A DNA stretch of 28,940 nucleotides, taken from positions 1 to 28,940 of the IMG/VR virus record IMGVR_UViG_3300020159_001374; one strand, written 5' to 3'. A program made the position numbers and the translations under genes. The notes beneath the pieces are model-generated. The model was not told where the DNA came from. It saw only the letters and a program-made list of their open reading frames with translations, and ran no database searches. Below are positions 3,394 to 26,575 of the stretch, piece after piece. Each line of letters opens with the position of its first letter. Position 1 is the stretch's first letter. The DNA is from a virus.

Positions 3394-4011
3394 ATGGCAT
3401 ATACACGTGGTAGTTCTAACGATATTATCGTTGGTGCAGCAGCACTCTTCACATACGAAGATGGCTCACTCACAGACGCAGATCTTCCAGCATACGTAGC
3501 AGGCGATTCATACAAGGATACTCTCCAAGATGACGCAGACTTCCGTAACGTTGGATACACAATGAATGGTTTGGAAATACAATTCCAGCCAGATTTCGGT
3601 GAAGTAGCAGTAGACCAGGTTCTTGACGTTGCTAAGTTGTTCAAGCAAGGCATGCAGGTAAACCTAAATACTACATTCGCAGAATCAACACTAGAGAATC
3701 TCCTATTTGCATTAGCAGGTAAGAACACAGATCTAGCAACAGTTTCAAACAACCCAACACTTAACCTTTCAGCAGGAGACATCGGAGATGTCCCAGTTGA
3801 GCGTGGTTTGGTAGCAGTTGGTCCAGGAACTGGAGACGCAGCAATCAATGTTGAGCGCGTCTACGTTGCATACCGTGCACTTTCAATTGAGAGCGTATCA
3901 GTATCAGCAAAGAGAGATGAAGCGACAATGTTCGAAGTATCATTCCGTCTTCTTCCAAATGATAATGCATCATACGGTAAGATCGTAGATCGCACTTATA
4001 CCCCAGCATAA
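3394..4011 (+). CDS. Major tail tube protein
   Basis: Encodes 205 residues, starting at ATG 7 nt after AGAGGTG and ending in two consecutive TAA codons. The product has the size, acidity and beta-rich pattern of a siphovirus tail tube subunit: an N-terminal GAAALFTYEDG strand, a long central loop with GYTMNGLEIQFQPDFGEVAV, and a C-terminal pair of strands (SVSVSAKRDEATMFEVSFR). It is its own transcription unit, flanked by a promoter and a UUCG terminator, as expected for a protein made in hundreds of copies. Codons are host-optimised in look (TTC, ATC, AAC, CGT), like the capsid fragment and unlike the tail-tip genes. Confidence 0.85.
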   Translation: MAYTRGSSNDIIVGAAALFTYEDGSLTDADLPAYVAGDSYKDTLQDDADFRNVGYTMNGLEIQFQPDFGEVAVDQVLDVAKLFKQGMQVNLNTTFAESTLENLLFALAGKNTDLATVSNNPTLNLSAGDIGDVPVERGLVAVGPGTGDAAINVERVYVAYRALSIESVSVSAKRDEATMFEVSFRLLPNDNASYGKIVDRTYTPA

Positions 4012-4027
4012 TAACTAAATACATGAG

Positions 4028-4057
4028 AGGCTCAATCCTTCGGGGTTGGGCCTTTCT
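4028..4057 (+). terminator. UUCG-tetraloop terminator after the tail tube gene
   Basis: An 11-bp stem (4028-4038 with 4043-4053, including two G-U pairs) closes a TTCG loop flanked by C and G, the very stable C(UUCG)G tetraloop. It is followed by TTTCTGTTT. It lies 16 nt after the tail tube stop codon. Confidence 0.92.
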
Positions 4058-4060
4058 GTT

Positions 4061-4076
4061 TGGTATACTTATATAA
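4061..4076 (+). promoter_or_regulatory. Extended -10 promoter for a leaderless chaperone mRNA
   Basis: TGG-TATACT (4061-4069) is an extended -10. A transcription start about 7 nt downstream falls on the A of the ATG at 4076. No Shine-Dalgarno is present between the UUCG terminator and the ATG. A second TATAAT (4072-4077) overlaps the ATG and would start transcription inside the gene. Confidence 0.6.
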
Positions 4077-4756
4077 TGCCTACAGAAATATACAAAACAT
4101 CAATTATAGAACTATTTGATGGCACAGAACTGTACATTACCCCTTTAAAAATAAAATATTTAAAGTTGTTTTTAGATGAATTTGAAAATGTAAAAACCTC
4201 TAAAAATGATGATGAGGCAATGTTCTATCTTGCTAAATGTGCAACAATTACAATGAGGCAATATTGCCCAAGTATAAAGACTCAAGAACAATTGGAAGAT
4301 AATATTGACATGCCAACAGTATATAAATTGTTAGATTTTTCAGCAGGTATAAAAATAAATGAAAAGTCTGAAGAGCCAGTAAAATCTCAAGCAACAGAGA
4401 GTGGATCTTCGTGGGATGACTTAGATTTAGCAGAGATAGAAGCAGAGGTATTTTTGCTGGGAATTTGGAAAGACTACGACGAATTAGAATCATCTATGTC
4501 AATGCCAGAAATAATGGCAACCCTTAAAGTAAAAAGAGATCTTGACTACTCTAATAAAAAGTTTCTTGCTGCAATGCAAGGGGTTGACTTAGACAAAGCA
4601 AGCAATAAAAGCAATGCCTGGGAAGATATGAAAGCCAGGGTATTTAGTAATGGAGAGGCAACAAACTCTAGAGACATTGTTGCTCTTCAAGGAGTTAATG
4701 CACAAAAGGCTGGTTTTGGAATCGGAATGGGACTAGGTTACGAAAAAATAGATTAA
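4076..4756 (+). CDS. Tail-assembly chaperone, long form (G-T-like, unshifted)
   Basis: Encodes 226 residues from the ATG at 4076. An upstream in-frame TTG at 4046 lies inside the terminator stem and is unlikely. Residues 1-95 (DGTE at 15-18, CPSIKTQEQLE, PTVYKLLDFSAG at 80-91) parallel the whole short chaperone encoded next. A linker follows, then a C-terminal domain of about residues 112-200 (AEVFLLGIWKDYDELESS, KKFLAAMQGVDLD). In most siphophages such a C-terminal (T-like) domain is reached only by a -1 frameshift from the short G-like protein. Here it is continuous with the N-terminal domain. Chaperones of this type hold the tape measure during tube assembly. The gene appears leaderless. 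Confidence 0.75.
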   Translation: MPTEIYKTSIIELFDGTELYITPLKIKYLKLFLDEFENVKTSKNDDEAMFYLAKCATITMRQYCPSIKTQEQLEDNIDMPTVYKLLDFSAGIKINEKSEEPVKSQATESGSSWDDLDLAEIEAEVFLLGIWKDYDELESSMSMPEIMATLKVKRDLDYSNKKFLAAMQGVDLDKASNKSNAWEDMKARVFSNGEATNSRDIVALQGVNAQKAGFGIGMGLGYEKID

Positions 4757-4771
4757 TTTTACCTTCCAGCA

Positions 4772-4802
4772 TGGTATAATTAATTGTTAACCTACAAGGA
4801 GG
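4772..4802 (+). promoter_or_regulatory. Promoter and Shine-Dalgarno before the short chaperone and tape measure
   Basis: TGG-TATAAT (4772-4780) followed by TAAT is an extended -10 nearly identical to the one at 26557. A perfect AAGGAGG lies at 4796-4802, six bases before the ATG at 4809. No -35 is visible. It likely drives the short chaperone, the tape measure and the coupled tail-tip genes. Confidence 0.7.
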
Positions 4803-4808
4803 AAAACT

Positions 4809-5150
4809 ATGGCTGACAAGCCTTTAACAACAAAAAATACAGATGGCAAGACCATCACACTAATGGATGGCACAGAGATTGTAGCAAGACCACTTAAGTT
4901 ATCACTGCTTAGACCATTTATGGCTAAGTTCTCTCTTTTGGCAGAGGCCTCAGAGGATAACGAAAAGTCAATGGACATACTCATTGATTGTGCACAAATA
5001 GCACTAAAGCAGTTCAAGCCAGAGTTGGCAGAAAGCAAGGAAGCGCTAGAAGAAATTTTAGATCTTCCAACTGTTTATCAAATTATCGATGTGGCATCAG
5101 GACTTCAAAACTCTGAGTCGTCAACATTGCTAAGTTCTTTAAACAAATAA
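4809..5150 (+). CDS. Tail-assembly chaperone, short form (G-like)
   Basis: Encodes 113 residues with an excellent Shine-Dalgarno. It matches the N-terminal half of the preceding gene's product in order and spacing: I-x-L-x-DGTE near residue 20, a PLK motif, a CAQIALKQFKP stretch against CATITMRQYCP, and LPTVYQIIDVASGL against MPTVYKLLDFSAGI. The two are therefore paralogues, and this one lacks the C-terminal domain. Its place immediately before the tape measure is the standard chaperone position. A -1 slippery heptamer lies three codons before its stop, but the -1 frame closes after nine codons. Confidence 0.8.
   Translation: MADKPLTTKNTDGKTITLMDGTEIVARPLKLSLLRPFMAKFSLLAEASEDNEKSMDILIDCAQIALKQFKPELAESKEALEEILDLPTVYQIIDVASGLQNSESSTLLSSLNK
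5138..5144 (+). other. Possible relic -1 slippery site (T TTA AAC)
   Basis: The heptamer T-TTA-AAC is in the correct phase relative to the short chaperone frame (X XXY YYZ). After a -1 slip the reading frame would add about nine codons and stop at TGA 5171-5173, so no T-like extension is encoded. It may be a relic, a weak functional site or coincidence in an A-rich region. Confidence 0.35.
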
Positions 5151-5176
5151 AAAAACTAAAAGAGGTGCATTGAGAA

Positions 5177-8100
5177 TTGGCAGATGTAAATTCTAATATA
5201 AATATTAATTTTAATACGGCTGCTGCTCTTGCACAACTACGTAGTCTACAGGCAGGCCTCAGCAGGTTCCATCAGTCACTTGCTGAGGGCAACCTGGCTG
5301 CTGCGAATGCTCAAAAAGGTTTAAATGCACAACTGATTCAATCTGTTGGGGCTACAGGAAAATTTTCTGCAAGTCAAGTCAAAGTTGCTGGAAGCACACT
5401 GGCTTTTACATCTGCATTAGAAAAAAACAAACTATCACTTCGTGAATATTATAGATACACCATGGCAGCAGCAACTGCCAATACCCGTGTTATGGGCAAG
5501 GCTTTTGCACAAGAACGAGAAATTATAAATCGTGCTCGTAGAGATAGAGTAAAAGCCTTACAAGCCCAATACGTTCAGATGAACAAATCCAATGCTGGAT
5601 TTATGGATGCAATTAGAATTATGCCAAAAAGCCTTCAAATGGCTAGTGGAAAGTTTACAGAACTTGGAACAAGAATACAGTATGCTGCACAAAGACAGCA
5701 GTTCCTTAATCAACTATTAAAGCAGGGATCTACACAACTCCTTAACTTTGGTAAGAATACTCAATGGGCTGGACGACAGTTGATGGTTGGTATGACAATG
5801 CCACTTGTCTTATTTGGCGCAGCAGCAGCAAAATCATTTAGAGAATTAGAAACAGCGATTGTAAAGTTTAAGCGTGTTTATGGAAATGCTTTTACTAATG
5901 AATCAGAAATAAATCTAGCCGTAGAAAATATCAGGGCTCTGGCAACTGAATATACTAAATATGGTGTAGCAGTAAAAGATACTATGGACATGGCTGCAAC
6001 TGCAGCAGCAGCAGGCTTTACAGGTAGAGCATTAACAGCACAAGTTGAAACAGCAACAAAGTTAGCAGTTCTTGGACAGATAGAGCAGCAGCAAGCACTT
6101 GAAACTACTATTTCTTTGCAAAATGCTTTTGGTTTATCTAGTGAAGAACTTGCCAAAAAGATTGACTTTCTTAACGCAGTAGAAAACCAAACTGTTCTAT
6201 CTATTGAAGACTTAACTATTGCAATTCCAAAAGCAGCACCAATTATAAAACAACTTGGTGGAAGTGTTGAAGACCTAGCCTTTTTCCTTACAGCAATGAA
6301 GGAAGGTGGAATTAACGCAGCAGAAGGAGCAAACGCATTAAAGTCTGGTCTTGCTTCTATGATTAACCCATCTAAAAAAGCAGCAGCATTTCTTGGAGAT
6401 CTTGGAATAAATATAAAAGGTATTGTTGAGGCAAATGCTGGAAATTTACAAAATACTATTATTGGTTTTGCACAGGCACTCGATACACTTGACCCACTTA
6501 ATCGTGCAAGAGCAATTGAACAAATGTTTGGTAAGTTTCAATTTTCTCGTTTATCAACACTATTTCAAAATGTAACAAAAGATAGTTCACAAGCATCACG
6601 TGCTCTTAGTTTAGCAGGATCCTCAGTAGAAGAATTAGCAATCCTATCTGAGCGAGAAATGGGAAAGATTGAAGACTCTGTTGGAGTTAAGTTTCAGGCA
6701 GCAATAGAGCAATTTAAACAAGACATTATGCCTTTAGGAAAAATATTTCTTGAAGCCTTAACCCCAGTAGTTAAATTTTTTGGTGGACTATTTGAAAAGT
6801 TTAATGGTCTTGGAGATAAAACAAAGAAAATTATTGCAATAGTAGTTGGAGCAGTAGCAGGTCTTGGACCAGTAGTGCTAATGACTTTCGGTCTTTTGAT
6901 GAACGCAGTTGCAAATGGAATTAAACTGTTTGCAATGCTTCGTGGCGGTATTGCTAAGTTAAATGGAAAAACAAATATAATGGGCGCAGGCTTTAACTAT
7001 ATGACACAAGAGCAGATTGAAAATGCTGCATCTTCTAGTCAACTTCACCAAACACACACAAGGCTAGTTGAAGTATTTAATGTTGAAAAAACTGCTGTAT
7101 CTGGTCTTGCTGCATCTTACAGTGCACTAAGCACTCAGATGAGAGCAATGGCTTCACAAAACCCAGCGCTGTTTGCAGGAGGAAAACCTGGTGCAATGAA
7201 TGCAGTAAGAGGTTTGCCACCAGTAAAAAGGTATAAGACTGGAATACTTAGTGTCCCTGGTCCAAAGGGTGCAGGAGATGTTGTTCCAGCAATGCTTTCT
7301 CCAGGAGAAGCAGTTATTCCAACAAAGACTACAAACAAGTACAGAGGCCTTATTAGTGCAATGTTTAAAGATAAGGTACCAGGGTTTATGGCTGGAAGAC
7401 TTCCTGGTGGACCTGGAAAGGGTGTTCCACTATCTCCTGGACCAAAAGCAGTAAGAGATGCACAGCAAGCAAGATACAGAAGAATAAACGATGCTCGTCA
7501 AGGATACTCTGACCCTCATCCAGAAAAGCAAACAGGTCCAACTTTTATTGGTATGCCAAAGAGTTCTTCCGAAGCCACACAGTCTAGACAAATTTTAGAT
7601 AAGATCTCAAATCAGGTAAGACTTGGAGAATTTGGATCTGTTCCACCAACAGATTTTGGAACAATGCTTCAGTCATTTTCAGGAAGAAGTTTCCCTGCAC
7701 GTGGAGTTGGCGGGGTATACAGAAAATCTAACGGACAAATAGTAGTAGTAAAACCAACAATAGATGCAAAGACTGCATTAGCAGAAGTTCGTGCTACTCA
7801 AATTGCTAGAGAAGTTCATGGACTTGTATCTCCAAAACAAACTATTAGAACAATGATGGACCCAACAGACCCAACAGGCCAAAGAAAGTTTATAGTTATT
7901 GAATCTCCATATGATCCAAGAATTGCTACTACGACTGGCAAGTTTTCAAAATCTGAAATGGTTAAGCAGTTAGTTGCATCAACATTAAGAGGAGATAAGG
8001 ATTTACAAAGACCAAACTTGTCTGGTAATGTTTTGTCAGATGTTGGAACTGCTGGAGTATTTGATAGAGCATCTGGATTTAGAGATTTTGCTAAGGTCAT

Positions 8101-11100
8101 GCCAAGCATGGAGCAGCAAGCAATTGTTAACCTTCTTGGAGTAAAGGGAGGAGCAAAGAAATTCTTTGCACAAGAAACTTCTGCAACAGCAGCCTCAATG
8201 ACTCCAGCCCAGTACGACACAGCAATAAAAGCAGAGATTCGTAAATCAATTCCAAGATTAGAAAACCTTCTTAAGACTTGGAACCTAGGCCCAGAAGAAA
8301 AAATTGTTTATGGAAATATGCTTCAAAGACTTAAGGATGGAGCAAAGACAGATTGGGCAGCACTACAGCCTATGCATGCTCGTGCAGGAGATGGTGTTAT
8401 AAAGGCAATTAGGGGTATTAATCCTGAATCATTAAGTGTTGAACAAAGAGAACAACTTAGCAGATACTCTTTAGCATCACTTGGCGAAGAGCAGTCATCT
8501 ATAGATAATTTAAAGGGTACTGTCAATAAACAATTTTTAGACAGGCTAGAGACTATAGATCCAGATAGAGCAAGAGTTATCAAGGCAGCATGGTTCGGTG
8601 GAAAGGTTGATAACGTTCCACCAACAGGAGGCTCACAAAGTTTTTCCTCACCAAGACAAACAACATTTTTAAACGAACTTGATAAGATGACTCCAGTCAA
8701 TATCGATGGAGTAACTAAATATGTCCATGACGACGATATGGATGCATTTGCATCAGACCCTAAAGGAAGAGCAAAGTGGGCAAGAACATCTCAAGAAGTT
8801 AGAGATATGCTTCTTTACAGAATGGGTGCTGAGCCAGATGATAAGGGCAGATTTGTTGCTAATAAAAAATTTACTGGAAGATTTGGTGACCTTGGTGCTT
8901 TTACAAAAACACTAAGATCCACTGGAAAACAGTCAGGAGGAGGTCTTGGAAATACAAGCAAGATTGTAAAACCTTTTGCAAAACAAGAAATAGAAGAATA
9001 CAACAAAAGAGTTGGAAATCCGCTTACAACGATAACAGGAAAACAGATGCTTGCCGATGGGTGGTCTCCAGAGGAGGTTAAAGATCGATTAAAAGAAAAT
9101 CTTTCACACATAAAAAAAGAAGTTACTGGTTCAACATCAGGTGCTCTAAAGATGAAAACTGGAGAGGCTTTATATGATACAAGATTATTAAATAATTATC
9201 TAAATGCAGACAGAAGAAGTTCCAAGATCCTTGATTGGAATGGCCCTAATAATATTTTAGGATTATCAGATGTAGAAGAATATAGAAGAGCAGCAGACTT
9301 TATGGCAAAAGAACAGCATCCAACGAATGCAAATGAAAGAGCACTTCTTGCTAAAGCCGCAGAATTAGATCAGATAGTTATTAATCATAAAGATAAGGGA
9401 AACAAAGTTCCATCAGATTTAATCATAGCAGATAAAAGAGTTCCTAAAGCATTAAGAACTCTAATATCAGACCCACGATTCCAGCCAGGTAGATTACTTA
9501 ATTTAGCAGCACAATCAGCAGACCAGGTTTTAGTAAATCCTAATAACGAAACTAAGATAACTGTTAATCCAAAGACTAAGAAAGTAAAAGAACAAAGATT
9601 AACAAATGCTAACACTACTCCTAAACCTGTTGGAGCAGTAGCAGACAGCGGAAGCCGATTAGATACCAGAGCAACATCATTAGGACCAAATCAAAGCGTT
9701 GTAACAAGAAGCCAACTTTTAAATTTCCGCAGAGGTTTTGCAAAAATTCCTACATTCTCTATGCCTGGAAAAATTGATGGAGACCCCAGCGTAGGAAAAA
9801 TCACATCATCGGATCAACTAAGCAAAGCAGCACAAAAAAGAATTAATGCTGGACTTGCTGAAAAGGCAAGACTATTAGCAAAAGAAAATAAACTAACTAA
9901 GACTCAAATTACAAGGGCAATTGAAAAGATAAGAACACAAAGAACTGAAACAGAAATTACAAAGGCAAATATTCGTTTACAAACTCAGGCTGCTAATGAA
10001 GCCAAAAAGAATGCATTATCTCCAAAGCAACAGAAAAAATTAGATCGTCAAACAGTAAGACAAAACAGGATGGAGAAAGTAGGTAGATACTCTGGTGGCG
10101 TTTCTATGGCTCTTGGAACTGCAGGCATGGGATTAATGATGGCTGGCCAAGAAAAGGCTGGTATGGCAGCAATGGGTGCATCTGCTGTAGCAGGATTGGC
10201 TCCAATGCTTACAAACCCTGCAGGAGCCGTTGCTGCAGGACTTATGGTAGCAGTAGGAGCAATTGTTGCATTTAACATGGCACTAGACAAGGCCAAAAAA
10301 GAAGGTATTGCTTTAGGTAATGCCATGTCTATGACTAAGGGCAAACTAATTGAATTATCAAAAATCACTAACACTGTTTCAGCATCTGAATCAGCAGACA
10401 GAAAAAGAGCAGATCTACTTGTTGGAGCAAATGAAAAACAACGCAAAGTTGGACAAACAATACTTGAGTCAGACTTTGGAAAATCACTACTTGCAGATAT
10501 AGAAGCACAGGTAAAAGCAGGATTCTCAAGTGCTGATATTGGAAAAAACATGGGAGTTCAACTGTCTGCAGCAATGCTTAGCGGTGTCATAGACTCAGAT
10601 CAAGCAAGAAGTTTGGCTATGGCAATAGGTAATGAGTTAAAAGACTATCCTCTATCTGCAAATATTGCTGCGGAAATAATTCAAATTACTGGTCCTAACG
10701 GAGAAAATATTAAAAAGGATCCACTACAAGTTGCTTTAGATATTGATAAAAAAACTTTTGAGACTTCTAAAAAGATGGTTGATTATGCATCAGGACAAAG
10801 TTTTTCCTATTGGAATGCATTAAATGCCTTTGGTGGAATTGGATCGGTTTCACAGCAGTTTGGCCCAATCGTCGGCGGTGCACTTGGTAAATTTAGTATG
10901 TTTGACCGCAATAAGAACACATCAACACTCATCGGCCCAGGTGGAACCATGGCATCTGCTGAATCAGCAAGAAAGGGAGAAAAGGGTACATGGCATCAGG
11001 TGCAACAATCTATAAATCCATACATTTATCAGGACTGGTATGATCCCAAAAAGAGTGGAATGGATAAAGCCTTGTCTGTTCTTACATTTGGTACAACCTC

Positions 11101-14100
11101 TGCATACTTTCAGATAAGAGATGCAAAGGCAGCATCACTTAAAATTCAAACTGCTGGTGCACAGTTAATGGTTCAAGAATTAGCAAACAATCAGCAAATA
11201 ATAGATTCATTAAACAAACAGTATGACATTAGACTAAAAAGTGCTAAAACTGAAAAAGAAAGAGCAAAAATTCAGGAAGAAAGAAGAGCAGCACTTGATG
11301 GTGTAAATGCACAAAATCAAAATCAAATCAATACAATCTTAGCATCTAAAGATAAAATTGGAGAAGATGCTTGGAATGCTGCCATTAAAGGCGCTGTAGA
11401 TGAGTTATATCCAAAAGGACCACAAGCAGCACTTAAAGATGCAGCACTTCTACAACTAGAGGGTATGGCAGATAGTGCATTTAAAACAGAAATGCAGTTG
11501 CAGTTTGCAAGTAACTTAATCGATCCAATGACTTTGATTGATTTACTTAGTAATGAACCATTCCAAAAAGAATATAATATTTTAGTTGATACTACTTTTA
11601 AAGGTGACGCTGCAGGCGCATCTGTTTTTTCACAGTTAATGTCAAAGGCTGGACTTGGTACTGATCAAAAAACCAATGTTACAGCAATGATAAATGATAC
11701 AACAACGTATGACGCTGCTATGAAAAACGCTACAACTGATGAACAAAGAGCAAAAGCCAGAGGGGATAGACAAGAACAGATAGATAGCATTAAAGAAGCA
11801 GTTGCTGCATTGTCTCAAATACAAGAAACCTATGGTATTAACTTAGATGTTAATGATAATAGTGTGGCAAAAGTTCAAAGAATTGCAGACATGGTAAAAG
11901 CATTAGGCGGGAAAAAGGGCGTAACAAAGGCTGAATTAAAAATAATGGCAGACCCGAAATTAGGGGGAGATCCAAGATATCAATACATTTTAGATAATTG
12001 GGAAGCGCTTGTTGGAGATGGCCTTACAATGTCAGCAACAATGTTGCTTAATCTTGAAACAATGGTTACAGATGATATGATTCTGCAGGGTTATTTGCAG
12101 GCTGCTGGAACTACAAGCGAGATTCAAACAAATGAATTAATGCAAAAGGGAATGATTCCAAGTTGGGCGATGGATAGAACTGCTAAAGAAAAGGCAGCCG
12201 CTTACTTTGCTGCAAATCCAGCCAAGTTTAAAGAAATCTTTGGTGTTGAGTATGAGGGTCAAGATCCTCCTGTAAAGGTGGCTGACCCACTTGAGTTCTT
12301 ACAGCCATTGGCTATGCAATTAAAGCAGGTAAGAGACAATGCATTTAATGCTCTTACTCCAGTAAAGTCATTGCTTGAAGCATTTACAAATAAAAAAACA
12401 CAAAAAGATGCTTTTAATTTATTCGATGGTATTCAAAATAGACTTTTAAGGTTTGGCGTTGGTAAAGACTTTAGAGAAGCAATTGATTCTATGTCTGCAG
12501 AAGAATTTTCAAAGGTAGCAGAATTAACAGGTGATAGAGCCCTCTTTACTTTTGAAAAAGATAAGCCAAGATCAAAGGATACAATTACTGGACTAACTGA
12601 TACTGGCTTGGCTGCTGACCAAGGATACCGTGAAAGAAACCTTGGTACCTTTAATCTTGCTAATGAAGAGACAATAAAAGATATACAAGATCAATCCAAG
12701 GCATACAACATTTTAATTGGAAACGGATTAAGCGCAGCCCAGGCTTTAGAAGTTGTTGCTGATAAGTCTCAAGCAGCAGCCATTGCAGCAGGGGCAATTT
12801 CAAGTAGTGACCCAGACTGGAAACTTTATATTTCAAACATTAAAGAATCAACCACTGCTCTTGAGCGCCAAGCAGCATTAAATGATGCAATTAAGGCAAA
12901 TGAAGAATTTAGACTATATGCAGACATGCCAAACCTTGTTTCTCAAATGAAAGAACTTGGATATAGTACTGACCAAGTTGATGCCGTTCTTGGAAATCCA
13001 AAACTAGCAAAGTTTTTAGTCAATGATTTAAAAGATGGAAAACTAGATTCTAAAGAAATTGCAGATTATTTAAATGGTATTGAAGCAAGAAAGATTATTG
13101 ATATTCAGGTTGCACTTAATAATGGAGATATAGAAAAAGCATCTCAAAATGGAAGACAACTTGTTGATGAACTGTTCGCAGCACAAGAAGGACTAATACT
13201 TTTTAGTGATGATGCCAAGTTAATTAAGAAAAATGAAAAAGAGATTTCAGACAAACAACTTCTTATTGCTGGATTCCAACAAGAGATTGATAAACTTAAT
13301 GACAAAATAGAAGATGGTCAAAGAAAAATTGAAGAAGCCTATACAAGACCAATTGAAGATTTAAATGAAGAGATAAATGATTTAACTCGTGACCTAGAAA
13401 CAAACCCATTATTTGGTGATCGTGCTATTAAAAAGATTCAAGATGAAAGCAGCATTCTTTCAAATGATTTAGAAATTATAAATCATGCAGCAGATGAAGT
13501 AAATAAAAGATATGATGAGCAAGCAGAGGCTCTTTCAGAGATTCAAAAGATTAATGAAAATATTGTAGAGCAACAAAGCAATCAACTTGATTTAGCAGAT
13601 GCTCTTTCAAAAGGAGATATTTCTGCAGCAGCCGAGGCTGTACAGGCAATGCGAGAAGCAAATGCATCACAGTTTGCATCAGATCAATCAGATGCTTTAG
13701 AGCAAGCAAGACAAAATGAACTTAACGCTCTTGTAGGTCCACAAAGAGGATTAACAGCAGAACAAATAAGTGAAAAGCAATATGAGAATGCACAAAAAAT
13801 TTATGAAATGGAAAACAATCCAACCAGACTTTCTATATTGGAAATGATTATTGGCAAACAAGATCAGATATATAATTACGAAGAAAGTCGTGAGTTGGCA
13901 CTTCGTGGTATTAGAAAACTTGAAGACGCAATCTTTAAGATTGAAGAAGAATCTATTGAGCCACTTCAAGAAAGAATAGACAAACTTATTTATGAAAATT
14001 CAGTTATACAGGACAGAATAAATAAACAAATAGCAGAACTTACAGTTCTTGGTGAGACAAGAGATACATGGGGGGAGATTAACGCAAAACTAGATTACGC

Positions 14101-17100
14101 AGCAGCAGCATTCAAGGCTCTAAATGGTTCAAAAGATCTTGCAGGTTTGCTACAATCAATACGAGAAATAGACTCCACCTGGACAAACATACTTCAAACA
14201 ATGTCTCTATATGCAGGGGCAATACCAAGCAATGGATCAGTTCAAGATTCAATAAATAAAATTGGTGGAGTTGGTGCAACTGCTTATGTAGCACCAGAAA
14301 GCACTGCAGAAGATGTTGCAGCAGCAGAAAAATTTGACAGCGTGGTTGCAGAATTAGATCACGCACAAGCAGCACTTGATAGTGCTCAAGAAGATTTTGA
14401 TGCAGCAGTTAAATTGGGAAATGCATATGGTGTCAGAAATGCTGGAGTAAGACTTGAAAACGCAAAAGCAAGACTTGCTGCTGCACAGATAGCCTATAAT
14501 GCAACACTTCCTAGTTCTGACTCAAACAATCCTGGAGGAAGAAATAAAAATACCTTCCAATACCTTGCTACTGGAGGAAAGGTTAAACCAGAATATTTTG
14601 AAACAGGAAAACTTGCTCGTGGTACAGACACAGTTCCTGCAATGTTAACTCCTGGAGAGTTTGTAGTTAAAAAATCTGCGGTAAAGAAGTATGGATCAAA
14701 ATTCTTTAAAAACCTCAATGACAAAAAGTATCCAAAAAAGACTGCATCTATAACCCCAGCAGCAGTACTTGACATAATTAGTAGAATTGGCCCCTCATTA
14801 GATATTAAACCAAAGTCTGCCTACGATGCTAACAACCAGCCTACTGGAAGTCCACAAGGAAGATACTGGGGAGAATTAGAAAGACTATACGAAGGCTCTC
14901 CAATCGGATTTGATAAAAATGGAAAGCCAATATTTAATACTACAGGAAAAGATCCATGGGGCGGAACAGAAATACCAGGACTTCCATTTAGTGGCAAGGT
15001 CGCAAATTTCTCAGACTATTTCCATCAACTAGCAGAGCAGCCAAAGGCATCTAGCAGCCCAGGAATGGGTATTGATAAGACTCCAGACCGTTATGCAGGT
15101 TCTGGTGCTTCTACGGGCGGTATTGGTAGTGGGGTATATCGTGCTGGTGGCCTACAACTATTCTCTAGAGGTGGAATGGTTAATCCATTAATGATGCATG
15201 ATGGCGGAATGGTAGGAAGGCCTCCACACCCTAACGCTCCAGAAGGACATATCCATCACCCAGATGGGTCAATGACTTTTAAGGGTAAAGCACTAACAAG
15301 AGATGGAAATCCTGCAGGGTTCAGGGAAATATTTAGAAAATCCAATTGGGAACAAACCGCTAACTTCTTTGGATTACCATCAATTGGAAAGACTATACAA
15401 GACCTTGTAAAATTTGGCGGACCACACGGAATGATCATGGCAAAACTTCAGGGTAAAGAAATGAAATCTAATCTTGGAGATAATCTAACGGCTGCATTAT
15501 CTGTTATTCCTATTCCTGTAATGAAATTATTAAAGCCAGCAATGAACTTAGTTAGCAAGGTAATTCCTCAAGGTGCAAAAAATTTCCTTGCAAACCAGGG
15601 CATTGACATGTTTAGCAAACTATCGACCAAGTTAAACGCACCTAAGATAACTTCAAAGCCAAATACAGAACCTTCATTGTCTAAAGATACAATAGAGATG
15701 ATTGAAAAGTATAAAGCAAATATTCAAACAAACATAAAAGAAATTGAACAATTAAAAAATGGTACTTACCTTCATCCAGGAACAAAAGAGCCTGTAGTTG
15801 GACAAGAAGCAGAGAATCTAATAAATTATCGTAAGGGCTGGATAGTTGAAGATCAAGAGCGAATTGCTTTAGGTCTAAAGTACGACGTTCCTCCAGATAT
15901 TTTTGGAACACTTGGAGAATATACTACACATCCAACAACAGCACAAGGCACAAACAAAGAGGCAATAGATCTTATAGCAAATCTAAGAAAAATTGGTAAG
16001 CCTATGACTGTTTATAGGGGATTAAGTTATAAAGACTTGGGAGATATTGCAGGCTTTAGAATGATGCCAAACACCCTTGGAATGATGAACGGTTTAGACT
16101 GGATGAAACAGTGGGGTCATCCAATGGAAGTTCTAGCACCAGGAGCAGCCTATGCACATGGATGGTTGCCAAATGCAGCAGATTTAATAAAGGCTTCTGG
16201 AAAGCCAGCACCAAGATCAGATGATCTTAAAAATGCTGCACCATTTATGTGGTTTGGCCAAGGAATAAAGCCAGGAGAATCTTGGATTCCAGAAAATATT
16301 AAATCTACAACAGAAAGTTTAGATTGGGCTAAGTATATTGCAAATCAAGGTGGTACTGGTGGAGGAGAGGCAGGCGCTGTAGCAAGAATTGAACTTGGGC
16401 CAGATGTTAGAGGTCTTAAAAACTTAATGGATTTTGGTATGGGTGGAACTGTTGCTGACCTTACCGCTACAGAGCAGTTGCTTGCTCCTTATACTAATTA
16501 TATTTTAAAAGAAGTTAAACCATTAGGACTTAATATTCCAGGAAAGGGTGGATTTGAGCGGGTTGATTACCACGTAGGACACAAGTATTACACGTCACCA
16601 GATATTCCTTTAGGAAGTGGGCCGTTCGATGAATGGGTGGGCGGTAATAATTTCTCCAAGTTACTTGATGAATATGTTTTTGAAGCAAACCAGACACTTC
16701 CAGTACCAAGCATAGCAGGAGATATGGGATATCCAACTTTTAACACAGTAAGTAATTCTAGCACAATAGATTCTATAAGCGAACTTACATCAAATTCAGT
16801 AAGTCCTGACTATATAGCAAATGTAGCAGCACGTGCTGCAACAATGTCAGCAGTTGCAGAAAAATTAAGAACTAATGCTCTTGAAAAACAAAATCTTCAA
16901 AATGCAGCAAAGGCTGAAGGATATGCAAAGAGAGGATATGCTTCTGGTGGTTTAGTTCCAAAACATTTTGCTGCTGGAGGATACGCTTCTGGAACAGATA
17001 CTGTTCCTGCAATGCTAACGCCTGGAGAGTTTGTAATTAAAAAATCTTCAGTTGATAAGTACGGAAAAGACTTTTTGCACGACATCAATGTTCAAAGATT

Positions 17101-19297
17101 ACACGACGGTGGTGAAGTAGGGCACAGGCATTTATCTGCTGGTCATATGGCAAGTGATTATAAAGCACGGAAACCTTGGTATAAAAAAGTAGGAAACTTC
17201 ATAGCAGAAGCAGTGAAAGAAACTGGAAGATCTGCTGAATGGCTTGCTCATTTAAACTCGCAACTTATGTATGGTGATAAGTCACCGACTGGCTTTGTAA
17301 TTAAAAAACTCACTGGAACCTCATTGCCTGAGCCTAAATTTATTAGCAAAAATAATCAAGATACATATGATGCAATTGCAGCACTGCGAGCAGCAGGAAT
17401 GGATTCAGAAGCAAATAAAGCATTTGCAATGAAAACTGGTATGAGCGGATTAAATGTAGGATCCCTATTTGTAGGCGGAGCATTAGGAAGTGGATTAACA
17501 AGATCTGCTATTAGTGCATACGGAGCAACAAAAGGAGTTCCAGCACTAGGAACACTTTTGCCAACTGGATCTTTATCTTACGGTACAAAGGCAGGACTAG
17601 GCGCAGCATCAAACTTGGGATCTAGTGCATATTTAAGTACTACAAAAGCATTTACTCCAAAAACTACAGTACATGCCATGGGTCCTGAAGGTTTCAATAG
17701 TCCAAGTTTAGTACAAAAAAGCGTAACAACTAAAGAAAACCCAATAACTAAAAGTCTAAAAGAACTTTTTGGTAAAGCAACAAATGCAATTAGTTCTGGA
17801 GTTAAAGGTATTGTTCCAAATATTTTGCAAAATCCTTTAATGACTAGGGTAGCATCAATGTTTCCAAAAATAAATTCTTTTACAATACCTAAAATAATTT
17901 CAACCATAAAACAAAAAAAGGGAATAGAACTTTCTCCTTGGGAAAAGGCACAAAAGGATGCCATGGAACTAGCCAATAGCGGTGGCTTTACCCCAATAGA
18001 ATCATTAATGAGTGCTAAATATTCCACACTGGTTCAAGAGTTATCGGCTCTCACCCCAAAGTCAGGAACTTTCAAGGCTCCAAAATCTGGAATTGAGTAT
18101 GGCTATCATTTTTATCCAGGAAAAGTTAGTCAATTAGATGACGAAAGCAGGCTTATACCAGGTATTGAAAATTTTTCAATCAGTGGACATCTTGGTGAAG
18201 CACTTGGGCCAGCACATAAGATTGCTGTTACTGATCTAGTTAGCGGAACACCAATTGCAAGCCTTACATGGGACTCTATTACTGGAACAATTGGAATGGC
18301 ACAAACTCTAAAAGCATATCAGGATCAGGGGATTATGAGATGGCTAAACGAATATGCTGCAACATTTTCTAGATTAAAACATTCACTTTATAGAACTGAG
18401 GAAGGTAAGGGATACTCAACGGCAATAGGTGGGATTATGCCAGATAAGATAGTTGTAGATAGACCACTTCCAATAAACTTAGCAATTTTAGAAGCATTAA
18501 AAACATCTGGGATTGGTTCAGTATTTGAAGATCATATAAAGAGGCTGGGTCCTGGGCTAAATATAAGAACAATACCTCCCGCCATACGCACACCCGCGCT
18601 GCCAGATCCAGTACCGCTAAGGTCGTCCAGGGAGGACTTTTTGGATTGGATGCGTAGAGCCCAAGAACCTAATGTAATTCCTAAGCCAGACACAGTCACG
18701 ACAGAGCCGTCCAGGTCAGTGTTTGATTGGTTACGTGGTACCTGGTCACGCGTTACCAAAGACCCTGATGTAATCTCTAAGCCAGACACTCCAGCATTCA
18801 CAGAGCCTACAGGTAGACTTATCTTTCCATTAAATCAAAGTGGCACCATTTTTAGAGACGATGGAACTCTTGCAGCGCAAATAAGTAATATTAGATATGG
18901 TCCCGATGATGTATATAGAAATTACCTCGATGAAGCACTTATCAGTTCAATTGGACGTGCTGCCATAAGAAAGGGCAACGATGGCAACCTCTATTATAAA
19001 GCAAAGGGTGGAATAATACCTGAAAAATTTGTTAGCGGAGGTTATGCAATGGGAACTGATACAGTACCAGCAATGCTAACTCCAGGAGAGTTTGTTATGA
19101 GCAGATATGCTGTTCAATCCCATGGAGCAGACACAATGAAAGCAATAAATAATGGCTCAACTGTAGGAGAGTCAGTGTATAATTACAGTATCAATGTAAA
19201 TGTTAAATCTGATTCCAACCCAGATGAAATTGCAAGAGCAGTAATGACTCAAATAAAGAGCGTTGATTCACAAAAAATTAGAGGAGTTAGAGTTTAA
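5177..19297 (+). CDS. Giant multidomain tape measure protein
   Basis: Encodes 4,706 residues. The TTG start at 5177 has AGAGGTG nine bases upstream; the next in-frame ATG is about 90 codons on. The order is: N-terminal helices; a phage tape-measure domain at about 215-465 (FRELETAIVKFKRVYGNAF, AATAAAAGFTGRAL); hydrophobic stretches near 550-590 and 1637-1700; a kinase-like domain at about 833-1065; a long helical middle; a coiled coil at 2670-2985; a GTDTVPAML element at 3149; an ADP-ribosyltransferase-like domain at 3595-3810; another element at 3939; a GNAT-like domain at 4290-4430; a last element at 4626; and a closing YNYSINVNVKSD tail typical of the family. It sets tail length and is probably ejected with the DNA. 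Codons are AGA/ATT/TTT-rich. No peptidoglycan hydrolase motif was recognised. The gene is about three times the usual tape-measure size. Confidence 0.93.
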   Translation: MADVNSNININFNTAAALAQLRSLQAGLSRFHQSLAEGNLAAANAQKGLNAQLIQSVGATGKFSASQVKVAGSTLAFTSALEKNKLSLREYYRYTMAAATANTRVMGKAFAQEREIINRARRDRVKALQAQYVQMNKSNAGFMDAIRIMPKSLQMASGKFTELGTRIQYAAQRQQFLNQLLKQGSTQLLNFGKNTQWAGRQLMVGMTMPLVLFGAAAAKSFRELETAIVKFKRVYGNAFTNESEINLAVENIRALATEYTKYGVAVKDTMDMAATAAAAGFTGRALTAQVETATKLAVLGQIEQQQALETTISLQNAFGLSSEELAKKIDFLNAVENQTVLSIEDLTIAIPKAAPIIKQLGGSVEDLAFFLTAMKEGGINAAEGANALKSGLASMINPSKKAAAFLGDLGINIKGIVEANAGNLQNTIIGFAQALDTLDPLNRARAIEQMFGKFQFSRLSTLFQNVTKDSSQASRALSLAGSSVEELAILSEREMGKIEDSVGVKFQAAIEQFKQDIMPLGKIFLEALTPVVKFFGGLFEKFNGLGDKTKKIIAIVVGAVAGLGPVVLMTFGLLMNAVANGIKLFAMLRGGIAKLNGKTNIMGAGFNYMTQEQIENAASSSQLHQTHTRLVEVFNVEKTAVSGLAASYSALSTQMRAMASQNPALFAGGKPGAMNAVRGLPPVKRYKTGILSVPGPKGAGDVVPAMLSPGEAVIPTKTTNKYRGLISAMFKDKVPGFMAGRLPGGPGKGVPLSPGPKAVRDAQQARYRRINDARQGYSDPHPEKQTGPTFIGMPKSSSEATQSRQILDKISNQVRLGEFGSVPPTDFGTMLQSFSGRSFPARGVGGVYRKSNGQIVVVKPTIDAKTALAEVRATQIAREVHGLVSPKQTIRTMMDPTDPTGQRKFIVIESPYDPRIATTTGKFSKSEMVKQLVASTLRGDKDLQRPNLSGNVLSDVGTAGVFDRASGFRDFAKVMPSMEQQAIVNLLGVKGGAKKFFAQETSATAASMTPAQYDTAIKAEIRKSIPRLENLLKTWNLGPEEKIVYGNMLQRLKDGAKTDWAALQPMHARAGDGVIKAIRGINPESLSVEQREQLSRYSLASLGEEQSSIDNLKGTVNKQFLDRLETIDPDRARVIKAAWFGGKVDNVPPTGGSQSFSSPRQTTFLNELDKMTPVNIDGVTKYVHDDDMDAFASDPKGRAKWARTSQEVRDMLLYRMGAEPDDKGRFVANKKFTGRFGDLGAFTKTLRSTGKQSGGGLGNTSKIVKPFAKQEIEEYNKRVGNPLTTITGKQMLADGWSPEEVKDRLKENLSHIKKEVTGSTSGALKMKTGEALYDTRLLNNYLNADRRSSKILDWNGPNNILGLSDVEEYRRAADFMAKEQHPTNANERALLAKAAELDQIVINHKDKGNKVPSDLIIADKRVPKALRTLISDPRFQPGRLLNLAAQSADQVLVNPNNETKITVNPKTKKVKEQRLTNANTTPKPVGAVADSGSRLDTRATSLGPNQSVVTRSQLLNFRRGFAKIPTFSMPGKIDGDPSVGKITSSDQLSKAAQKRINAGLAEKARLLAKENKLTKTQITRAIEKIRTQRTETEITKANIRLQTQAANEAKKNALSPKQQKKLDRQTVRQNRMEKVGRYSGGVSMALGTAGMGLMMAGQEKAGMAAMGASAVAGLAPMLTNPAGAVAAGLMVAVGAIVAFNMALDKAKKEGIALGNAMSMTKGKLIELSKITNTVSASESADRKRADLLVGANEKQRKVGQTILESDFGKSLLADIEAQVKAGFSSADIGKNMGVQLSAAMLSGVIDSDQARSLAMAIGNELKDYPLSANIAAEIIQITGPNGENIKKDPLQVALDIDKKTFETSKKMVDYASGQSFSYWNALNAFGGIGSVSQQFGPIVGGALGKFSMFDRNKNTSTLIGPGGTMASAESARKGEKGTWHQVQQSINPYIYQDWYDPKKSGMDKALSVLTFGTTSAYFQIRDAKAASLKIQTAGAQLMVQELANNQQIIDSLNKQYDIRLKSAKTEKERAKIQEERRAALDGVNAQNQNQINTILASKDKIGEDAWNAAIKGAVDELYPKGPQAALKDAALLQLEGMADSAFKTEMQLQFASNLIDPMTLIDLLSNEPFQKEYNILVDTTFKGDAAGASVFSQLMSKAGLGTDQKTNVTAMINDTTTYDAAMKNATTDEQRAKARGDRQEQIDSIKEAVAALSQIQETYGINLDVNDNSVAKVQRIADMVKALGGKKGVTKAELKIMADPKLGGDPRYQYILDNWEALVGDGLTMSATMLLNLETMVTDDMILQGYLQAAGTTSEIQTNELMQKGMIPSWAMDRTAKEKAAAYFAANPAKFKEIFGVEYEGQDPPVKVADPLEFLQPLAMQLKQVRDNAFNALTPVKSLLEAFTNKKTQKDAFNLFDGIQNRLLRFGVGKDFREAIDSMSAEEFSKVAELTGDRALFTFEKDKPRSKDTITGLTDTGLAADQGYRERNLGTFNLANEETIKDIQDQSKAYNILIGNGLSAAQALEVVADKSQAAAIAAGAISSSDPDWKLYISNIKESTTALERQAALNDAIKANEEFRLYADMPNLVSQMKELGYSTDQVDAVLGNPKLAKFLVNDLKDGKLDSKEIADYLNGIEARKIIDIQVALNNGDIEKASQNGRQLVDELFAAQEGLILFSDDAKLIKKNEKEISDKQLLIAGFQQEIDKLNDKIEDGQRKIEEAYTRPIEDLNEEINDLTRDLETNPLFGDRAIKKIQDESSILSNDLEIINHAADEVNKRYDEQAEALSEIQKINENIVEQQSNQLDLADALSKGDISAAAEAVQAMREANASQFASDQSDALEQARQNELNALVGPQRGLTAEQISEKQYENAQKIYEMENNPTRLSILEMIIGKQDQIYNYEESRELALRGIRKLEDAIFKIEEESIEPLQERIDKLIYENSVIQDRINKQIAELTVLGETRDTWGEINAKLDYAAAAFKALNGSKDLAGLLQSIREIDSTWTNILQTMSLYAGAIPSNGSVQDSINKIGGVGATAYVAPESTAEDVAAAEKFDSVVAELDHAQAALDSAQEDFDAAVKLGNAYGVRNAGVRLENAKARLAAAQIAYNATLPSSDSNNPGGRNKNTFQYLATGGKVKPEYFETGKLARGTDTVPAMLTPGEFVVKKSAVKKYGSKFFKNLNDKKYPKKTASITPAAVLDIISRIGPSLDIKPKSAYDANNQPTGSPQGRYWGELERLYEGSPIGFDKNGKPIFNTTGKDPWGGTEIPGLPFSGKVANFSDYFHQLAEQPKASSSPGMGIDKTPDRYAGSGASTGGIGSGVYRAGGLQLFSRGGMVNPLMMHDGGMVGRPPHPNAPEGHIHHPDGSMTFKGKALTRDGNPAGFREIFRKSNWEQTANFFGLPSIGKTIQDLVKFGGPHGMIMAKLQGKEMKSNLGDNLTAALSVIPIPVMKLLKPAMNLVSKVIPQGAKNFLANQGIDMFSKLSTKLNAPKITSKPNTEPSLSKDTIEMIEKYKANIQTNIKEIEQLKNGTYLHPGTKEPVVGQEAENLINYRKGWIVEDQERIALGLKYDVPPDIFGTLGEYTTHPTTAQGTNKEAIDLIANLRKIGKPMTVYRGLSYKDLGDIAGFRMMPNTLGMMNGLDWMKQWGHPMEVLAPGAAYAHGWLPNAADLIKASGKPAPRSDDLKNAAPFMWFGQGIKPGESWIPENIKSTTESLDWAKYIANQGGTGGGEAGAVARIELGPDVRGLKNLMDFGMGGTVADLTATEQLLAPYTNYILKEVKPLGLNIPGKGGFERVDYHVGHKYYTSPDIPLGSGPFDEWVGGNNFSKLLDEYVFEANQTLPVPSIAGDMGYPTFNTVSNSSTIDSISELTSNSVSPDYIANVAARAATMSAVAEKLRTNALEKQNLQNAAKAEGYAKRGYASGGLVPKHFAAGGYASGTDTVPAMLTPGEFVIKKSSVDKYGKDFLHDINVQRLHDGGEVGHRHLSAGHMASDYKARKPWYKKVGNFIAEAVKETGRSAEWLAHLNSQLMYGDKSPTGFVIKKLTGTSLPEPKFISKNNQDTYDAIAALRAAGMDSEANKAFAMKTGMSGLNVGSLFVGGALGSGLTRSAISAYGATKGVPALGTLLPTGSLSYGTKAGLGAASNLGSSAYLSTTKAFTPKTTVHAMGPEGFNSPSLVQKSVTTKENPITKSLKELFGKATNAISSGVKGIVPNILQNPLMTRVASMFPKINSFTIPKIISTIKQKKGIELSPWEKAQKDAMELANSGGFTPIESLMSAKYSTLVQELSALTPKSGTFKAPKSGIEYGYHFYPGKVSQLDDESRLIPGIENFSISGHLGEALGPAHKIAVTDLVSGTPIASLTWDSITGTIGMAQTLKAYQDQGIMRWLNEYAATFSRLKHSLYRTEEGKGYSTAIGGIMPDKIVVDRPLPINLAILEALKTSGIGSVFEDHIKRLGPGLNIRTIPPAIRTPALPDPVPLRSSREDFLDWMRRAQEPNVIPKPDTVTTEPSRSVFDWLRGTWSRVTKDPDVISKPDTPAFTEPTGRLIFPLNQSGTIFRDDGTLAAQISNIRYGPDDVYRNYLDEALISSIGRAAIRKGNDGNLYYKAKGGIIPEKFVSGGYAMGTDTVPAMLTPGEFVMSRYAVQSHGADTMKAINNGSTVGESVYNYSINVNVKSDSNPDEIARAVMTQIKSVDSQKIRGVRV
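7268..7341 (+). repeat. Tape-measure hinge element, divergent copy 1
   Basis: GAGDVVPAMLSPGEAVIP (about residues 698-715) is a divergent copy of the GTDTVPAMLTPGEFV element found three more times in the protein. It follows the first hydrophobic segment and precedes the kinase-like domain, separated from it by about 110 residues of Pro/Gly-rich linker. Confidence 0.7.
7673..8371 (+). other. Kinase-like domain embedded in the tape measure
   Basis: Approximate residues 833-1065. Seen: a GVGGVYRKSNG turn resembling a nucleotide-binding loop, IVVVKP with Lys859, AEVRATQIAREVHG with Glu870 eleven residues later, a strand FIVIES resembling a hinge, and LRGDKDLQRPNLSGNVL (Asp940/Asp942, Asn947/Asn951) leading to DVGTAGVFD (Asp955, Asp963). 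This order (glycine turn, Lys, Glu, hinge, Asp-Asn loop, terminal Asp) follows atypical kinases of the HipA or phosphoinositide-kinase type. I recall similar segments in other actinophage proteins. Whether it is active cannot be judged; a structural nucleotide-binding role or a non-kinase fold is possible. Confidence 0.4.
13184..14131 (+). other. Coiled-coil rod region of the tape measure
   Basis: Residues of about 2670-2985 are rich in Glu, Lys, Gln, Ile and Leu with heptad-like spacing, for example KQLLIAGFQQEIDKLNDK and LQERIDKLIYENSVIQD. A central Ala-rich part (ALSKGDISAAAEAVQAMRE) recurs in many tape-measure proteins. This is the most rod-like portion and plausibly spans the tail lumen. 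Confidence 0.75.
14567..14695 (+). repeat. Tape-measure hinge element, copy 2
   Basis: ATGGKVKPEYFETGKLAR leads into GTDTVPAMLTPGEFVVKKS and KKYG (about residues 3131-3173). It shares most residues with copies 3 and 4. It marks the end of the coiled-coil rod and the start of the first C-terminal module. Confidence 0.85.
15959..16606 (+). other. ADP-ribosyltransferase-like domain embedded in the tape measure
   Basis: Approximate residues 3595-3810. The three signature elements of R-S-E ADP-ribosyltransferases occur in order: an Arg in MTVYRGLSYKDLGD (Arg3614), a Ser-Thr-Thr strand in STTESLDWAKYIAN (Ser3710-Thr3712), where the following helix resembles the usual SxxxxxAxxFA pattern, and a catalytic-type Glu in LTATEQLLAPYTNYILKEV (Glu3766), like the E-x-E-LL-P segment but with Ala in place of the first Glu. 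That substitution would disfavour the typical arginine-modifying chemistry. Known phage members such as T4 Alt enter the host with the DNA. It is bracketed by hinge copies 2 and 3. Confidence 0.5.
16940..17065 (+). repeat. Tape-measure hinge element, copy 3
   Basis: ASGGLVPKHFAAGGYAS leads into GTDTVPAMLTPGEFVIKKS and DKYG (about residues 3922-3963). It separates the ADP-ribosyltransferase-like module from the next hydrophobic and GNAT-like module. Both copies 2 and 3 are followed by His/Gly-rich text beginning HDGG. Confidence 0.85.
18044..18466 (+). other. GNAT-like acetyltransferase domain embedded in the tape measure
   Basis: Approximate residues 4290-4430. A strand pair (HKIAVTDLVSGTPIASLTW) is followed by a short strand GTIGMAQTL and a helix preceded by YQDQGIMRWLNEYA (Gln4382 to Met4387), which fits the Q/R-x-x-G-x-G/A acetyl-CoA loop with Met in the last position. 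It ends with KHSLYRTEEGKGYSTAIGG, resembling a His-Ser/Arg-Thr/Gly pattern I associate with phage GNAT-like proteins. The evidence is motif-level only and the fold could be something else. Confidence 0.38.
18635..18812 (+). repeat. Imperfect tandem repeat in a GC-richer patch of the tape measure
   Basis: Two units share GATTGG (18644 and 18725) and then TGTAAT-CTAAGCCAGACAC (from 18673 and 18769). In protein they read FLDWMRR...NVIPKPDT...TEPS and FDWLRGT...DVISKPDT...TEPT; the second unit carries about five extra residues. The patch (about 18570-18800) is visibly richer in G and C than its surroundings. Confidence 0.7.
19001..19126 (+). repeat. Tape-measure hinge element, copy 4
   Basis: AKGGIIPEKFVSGGYAM leads into GTDTVPAMLTPGEFVMSRY (about residues 4609-4650). 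It closes the GNAT-like module and precedes the conserved-looking C-terminus of the tape measure. Confidence 0.85.
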
Positions 19298-26556: not shown

Positions 26557-26575
26557 TGGTATAATTAATACACTA
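26557..26575 (+). promoter_or_regulatory. Extended -10 promoter for a near-leaderless gene
   Basis: TGG-TATAAT (26557-26565) followed by TAAT begins right after the preceding stop codon. The ATG is at 26575, nine bases after the hexamer, so transcription would start at or within about three bases of it. No Shine-Dalgarno is present. Confidence 0.6.

Follow-up and report, generated by a model that had tools for sequence, protein, structure and literature searches.

How does a phage supply the short and the long form of its tail-assembly chaperone if not by programmed frameshifting? In lambda-type phages, the short form is G and the long form is G plus T, and these gpG/gpGT-type chaperones are said, after the work of Xu, Hendrix and Duda in 2004, to be made by −1 frameshifting, the long form arising at a slippery heptamer. 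A review describes wide conservation of the G–T frameshift across long-tailed phages, T4 being the exception (PMC5009743). The window analyzed here is a 28,940-nt stretch of viral DNA (IMG/VR record IMGVR_UViG_3300020159_001374; G+C content, 37%), in which two ORFs lie between the genes for the major tail protein and the tape measure protein, as the chaperone genes of lambda-type phages do (Table 1). Unlike in lambda, G and T stand in one frame in the first of these genes, the heptamer is lost, and the second gene carries a G domain that is paralogous (~36–38% identity) to the first instead of identical with it. With a probability of roughly 0.85, the locus encodes the two chaperone forms (gpG and gpGT equivalents) as paralogous genes that replaced one frameshifted gene by duplication.

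Table 1. Features of the chaperone locus and its neighbors in the window.
Feature	Position	Strand	Remarks
Major tail (tube) protein gene	3394..4011	+	upstream neighbor; PHROG_2175, PHROG_885
Intrinsic-terminator-like hairpin	4025..4056	+	3′ of tail tube gene, 5′ of long-gene promoter
Extended −10 TGGTATACT, long gene	4061..4069	+	hexamer 4064–4069, 12 nt before ATG
Long tail-assembly chaperone (GT-like)	4076..4756	+	226 aa from ATG; G and T fused in frame
G-like N-terminal domain, long protein	4076..4375	+	residues 1–100; PHROG_10504, E=1.9e-18
T-like C-terminal domain, long protein	4463..4711	+	residues 130–212; PHROG_10474, E=6.5e-17
Extended −10 TGGTATAAT, short gene	4772..4780	+	TG-n-TATAAT in 109/109 distinct upstream regions
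Shine-Dalgarno AAGGAGG, short gene	4796..4802	+	match of at least 4 nt in 109/109
Short tail-assembly chaperone (G-like)	4809..5150	+	113 aa; PHROG_10504, E=1.1e-17
Tape measure protein gene	5177..19297	+	4,706 aa; downstream neighbor, presumed client of the chaperones

The identity of the neighboring genes places the locus in the tail module. The tail tube protein matches PHROG_2175 ("protein with Ig domain") best (E=8.9e-33) and PHROG_885 ("major tail protein") weakly, and its gene occupies the position of the annotated major tail protein in the Streptomyces phages EGole and Coruscant. The tape measure protein matches PhageMin_Tail (E=2.4e-26) and tape-measure families of PHROG (best E=2e-93). 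These family matches cover the first ~650 residues and short stretches of the protein only. Its interior contains several repeats of a TDTVPAMLTPGEFVI-like motif, and an interior stretch, KPMTVYRGLSYKDLG, resembles an ADP-ribosyltransferase by eye only; a Pfam search of the protein found no such domain. The hairpin behind the tail tube gene has a stem of 14 pairs (7 G-C), a loop of 4 and a T-rich tail, and in many relatives a G+C-rich hairpin is visible at the equivalent place. An Rfam search of positions 3900–5300 gave no match. The start of the long gene was taken at the ATG at 4076, the ORF tool giving an upstream TTG at 4046.

The preliminary description held that the two genes share an N-terminal domain, and residue alignment bears this out. 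The N-terminal ~93 residues of the long protein align with most of the short protein (36% identity and 67% positives over 85 aa, E=2e-18 by BLASTP), and the motifs DGTE, PLK and PTVY-D-ASG are present as first described. PHROG_10504 is common to both proteins, and PHROG_10474, a separate 86-aa family, matches the long protein only. When the long N-terminal domains (long-N) and the short proteins of the whole clade were compared as profiles, HHalign returned a probability of 99.95 (E=1.8e-37). At the level of sequence, the short protein is thus confirmed as a paralogue of the N-terminal domain of the long protein. The T-like assignment of the C-terminal domain likewise held, as this domain shows 39–43% identity to the T part of the Streptomyces phages EGole, Yaboi and Coruscant and is homologous to the T that Streptomyces (Stanwilliamsviridae) and Rhodococcus phages express by −1 frameshifting. 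Purifying selection acts on both chaperone genes, as estimated from median dN/dS values of ~0.10 for long-G, ~0.08 for T and ~0.18 for the short gene, calculated over pairs that are not independent. AlphaFold models of the long N-terminal domain and of the short protein have the same order of elements, with 2 strands and 4 main helices. The G-like domain of the long protein is modeled with a pLDDT of ~75–90; past residue ~110 the model is poor, and the PDB fold search with the long protein gave noise only. A BFVD search with the short model gave, as its top viral structural match, a protein annotated as a tail assembly chaperone (E=1.5e-6). Similarity to the solved HK97 chaperone (2ob9) is weak (Foldseek TM 0.40, E=2.9); VIA-align gives Z=4.4 with an rmsd of 7.0 Å over 92 residues, a score equally reached by unrelated chains. 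Neither chaperone reached the cut-off of any Pfam or NCBIfam family, and PDB sequence searches with the chaperones gave no match.

Relatives were gathered by searching viral contigs and genome contigs, and the loci were sorted by profile searches for G, T and a second G; as many were fetched repeatedly, identical sequences were then removed. Two types were found: a fused type with an in-frame G–T gene and a second G behind it (218 loci; 134 distinct sequences), and a frameshift type with T in the −1 frame of a single G (47 loci; 41 distinct sequences). The frame is open across G and T in every locus of the fused type; in the three fused loci that lack a second G, the contig stops at that point. 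Among the fetched loci, there was neither a frameshift-type G/T accompanied by a second G nor a fused gene without a second G on an intact contig. In frameshift-type loci, the distance from the stop of T to the start of the tape measure gene is −13 to +92 nt, so that a hidden second G is not possible there. One locus, L255, was considered as an intermediate on account of its window-like T tail and was rejected, being an ordinary frameshift type with AAATTTA. Among freshwater phages of the frameshift type, all 34 distinct junctions have a perfect X-XXY-YYZ heptamer in the frame of G, without exception 36 nt 5′ of the G stop (CCCAAAC in 27, CCCAAAT in 6 and AAATTTA in 1). The preliminary description proposed that separate genes stand in place of the programmed frameshift; the fused G/T gene with a second G and the lost heptamer, next to relatives that retained G/T slippage, agree with it.

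Annotated phages extend this comparison. In tblastn searches, the halves of the long protein correspond to two ORFs in Streptomyces phages of the Stanwilliamsviridae, where T occupies the −1 frame with respect to G; the annotation of Yaboi gives one joined product and a short product, with the tape measure gene directly after. Their junctions contain CCCGGAA only, which was left uncounted because it is not a perfect heptamer. The Rhodococcus phages Dorin and NiceHouse have a joined two-piece chaperone annotation and a classical slippery heptamer, GGGAAAA, before the G stop. The comparison of synteny that the preliminary description proposed found the adaptor, tail tube, chaperone and tape module shared with the Stanwilliamsviridae. 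Thus, the Stanwilliamsviridae (EGole, Yaboi and Coruscant) and Trinavirus-like Rhodococcus phages resemble the window in their homologous G and T and in the synteny of the tail module, and they differ in having a single G gene, T by −1 frameshift and no second G. A WhiB protein is encoded by 15 of the 18 relatives searched (mostly fused type) and by both Streptomyces phages tested. As WhiB was found in Corynebacterium only among 14 control genomes, the hosts are very probably Actinobacteria. The genome-contig search yielded one relative, a phage contig (L111) within a MAG named as a cyanobacterium; it encodes a frameshift-type chaperone and WhiB, and its placement is probably a binning error. 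In another frameshift-type locus (L287), an ORF of 2,114 aa, the longest in the stretch, begins ~6 kb past the expected tape start, and the tape measure gene may be split or the arrangement may be different.

The start signals of the two genes differ in a conserved manner. Among the distinct regions upstream of the long gene, the −10 hexamer lies exactly at −12 in 86 of 95, and a similar element lies within 15 nt in the other 9; in those 86, T-A-n-A-n-T and the G at −14 are invariant. No Shine-Dalgarno sequence was found before the long gene in any of the 95 regions. In bacteria, leaderless genes are marked by TANNNT ~12 bp before the start and are frequent in Actinobacteria (PMC3160421); the long gene shows this signal and has no Shine-Dalgarno sequence. 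It is therefore predicted to be leaderless, with transcription starting at the ATG. Upstream of the short gene, TG-n-TATAAT lies ~30–35 nt 5′ of the start in most of the 109 distinct regions, and the full AAGGAGG occurs in 72 of them. In the window, AAGGAGG precedes the short gene and not the long gene. The hexamer of the short gene is always TATAAT, whereas that of the long gene is often TATACT (C in 53 of 86). The earlier proposal that each copy has its own extended −10, one being leaderless and the other having a Shine-Dalgarno sequence, describes what is present, and the contrast is conserved across the clade. The start layout of 39 frameshift-type G genes, with extended −10, leader and Shine-Dalgarno, is the same as that of the short gene, implying that the ancestral start survives in the short copy and that the long copy lost its leader. 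Elsewhere in the window, extended −10 elements stand before two other genes. One (TGGTATAAT, in 26557–26575) lies directly 5′ of the gene at 26575 with its hexamer at −15, so that this second gene may be nearly leaderless; the other (TGATATAAT, in 253–279) is followed by AAGGAGG 5′ of the gene at 279.

It is plausible that these promoters and initiation signals set the ratio of long to short protein. Alternatively, the ratio may be set after transcription, by message stability, by initiation efficiency alone or by proteolysis, with the motifs being incidental. This possibility, though doubtful, draws on a strict two-hexamer sigma-70 scan, which found 8 sites against 6.8 in shuffled sequences and did not recover the extended −10 sites. 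However, the extended −10 of the long gene is nearly invariant and fixed in place although the long-N domains are only ~52% identical among themselves, and an extended −10 also precedes all short and frameshift-type genes. In Mycobacterium tuberculosis, leaderless messages have a lower median protein abundance, the cause being inseparable from transcript level (PMC3898074). With the cause unseparated there and leaderless messages common in Actinobacteria, the direction and the size of the ratio are not readable from the motifs.

The divergence of the two G domains raises another explanation, that the short protein is a specialized second chaperone, for example for a very long tape measure protein, and that the classical role falls to the long form alone. 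Across the clade, the median identity between long-N and short is 38%, and fixed differences (K27/Y28 in the long protein vs S32/L33 in the short protein) set them apart. Two G domains that are necessarily identical in a frameshift phage have thus evolved apart, and the short protein may exceed the role of the old short form. Among the sampled loci (L270–L289), the tape measure proteins of the fused type are mostly longer (2,648–4,706 aa) than those of most frameshift-type phages (~1,580–2,550 aa), in a comparison uncorrected for relatedness. Nevertheless, one frameshift-type phage has a tape measure protein of 3,976 aa and no second G. Moreover, among the fetched loci, a second G accompanies loss of the frameshift and occurs nowhere else, a pattern not expected of a simple additional chaperone. 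A specialized second chaperone is therefore considered unlikely.

Phylogenetic analysis addressed the origin of the second G. In the G-domain tree, long-N, short and frameshift-type G form separate groups (supports 96/90, 99/95 and 100/99). Rooting the tree with the G of Rhodococcus phages unites long-N and short in a single clade (100/98) that excludes frameshift-type G. With the Streptomyces phages as root, the T tree contains a single change from frameshift to fused in 88% of bootstrap trees. Based on the rooted G clade and the single change in the T tree, frameshifting is most simply the older state, and duplication and fusion would most simply have occurred once, on the branch to the clade of the window, after the frameshift-type lineages had split. 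Acquisition of the second G by recombination from another phage, instead of duplication within the lineage, would be compatible with the long branches to the long-N and short clades, as a donor could lie outside the sampled set; it is quite improbable in light of the grouping of long-N and short against all frameshift-type G, which persists without Rhodococcus (100/99). In view of these long branches, the rooted tree is good, yet not final.

The T domain is also out of reach of the short gene. The distance from the stop of the short gene to the tape start is 26 nt, a shift near its end would lengthen the product by no more than 8 aa (−1) or 15 aa (+1), and no T-coding frame was found 3′ of it in any frame. 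In the linker of the fused genes, no heptamer is present in 110 of the 134 distinct genes. Frameshifting at an unrecognized site, giving a truncated G from the long gene or a longer product from the short gene, was therefore rejected as most improbable: the heptamers of the other 24 fused genes, mostly A runs, are scattered and conserved in neither place nor type, T is in frame in every fused locus, and no T frame follows the short gene.

The replacement of one frameshifted gene by two paralogues is best explained as follows. The ancestor most probably expressed T from a G/T gene by −1 frameshifting, and its G was duplicated; one G copy was fused in frame to T with loss of the slippery site, yielding the long form only, and the second copy remained short. 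The long copy probably also shed its leader and Shine-Dalgarno sequence, with the −10 positioned so that the message would start at the ATG, and the short copy retained the ancestral layout of an extended −10, a leader of ~20–25 nt and a Shine-Dalgarno sequence. As to expression ratio, binding partners and function, the short protein would be in excess, like the short form of lambda-type chaperones, which greatly outnumbers the long one. This is expected because its gene lies downstream, has its own promoter and would also be crossed by transcripts from the upstream promoter. Many short copies would coat the tape measure protein, and a few long copies would recruit tail tube subunits via T. 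More speculatively, the two G domains may have been freed for different tasks, the long protein as a specialized initiator and the short protein as a coat, and the ratio given by a leaderless and a Shine-Dalgarno gene may respond to host physiology, unlike a fixed frameshift.

How new this layout is depends on a comparison with the T4-like phages, which are contractile-tailed. As described in a citing paper, some of these phages encode the short form in one gene and the long form, as a fusion, in another (Vladimirov, Gautam and Davidson 2022, cited in PMC10885494). By that description the arrangement is alike, with a long fusion that contains the short part and no frameshifting, so that the principle is already known; the predicted leaderless start of its long gene may set the window apart. 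When 50,697 phage records were searched by tblastn with the long protein, with E up to 10, only Streptomyces and Rhodococcus phages matched, and no T4-like phage. With no homology detected in this search, the two-gene layout probably arose independently of the T4-like phages, although a distant homology may exist. Some subclusters of the Microbacterium cluster EA phages have been reported to have the usual two ORFs (PMC7302621), which by that description are not a short and a long gene with a G domain in common. No paper describing the two-gene layout of this clade was found in the open-access literature, subscription papers being mostly outside the search. The clade of the window adds a second case to that of the T4-like phages. 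It belongs to a different lineage, has close relatives that kept the ancestral frameshift state, and shows the conserved pair of leaderless and Shine-Dalgarno starts.

A large natural group of freshwater phages has thus given up the G/GT frameshift, and its close relatives retained slippage. Therefore, the states before and after the change can be compared directly, and this comparison could address what replaces the control of the ratio and whether both chaperone forms need identical N-terminal domains. Pipelines that find chaperones by relying on the frameshift will mislabel phages of this type. In addition, the conserved pair of start architectures provides a ready test of leaderless against Shine-Dalgarno dosage in Actinobacteria.
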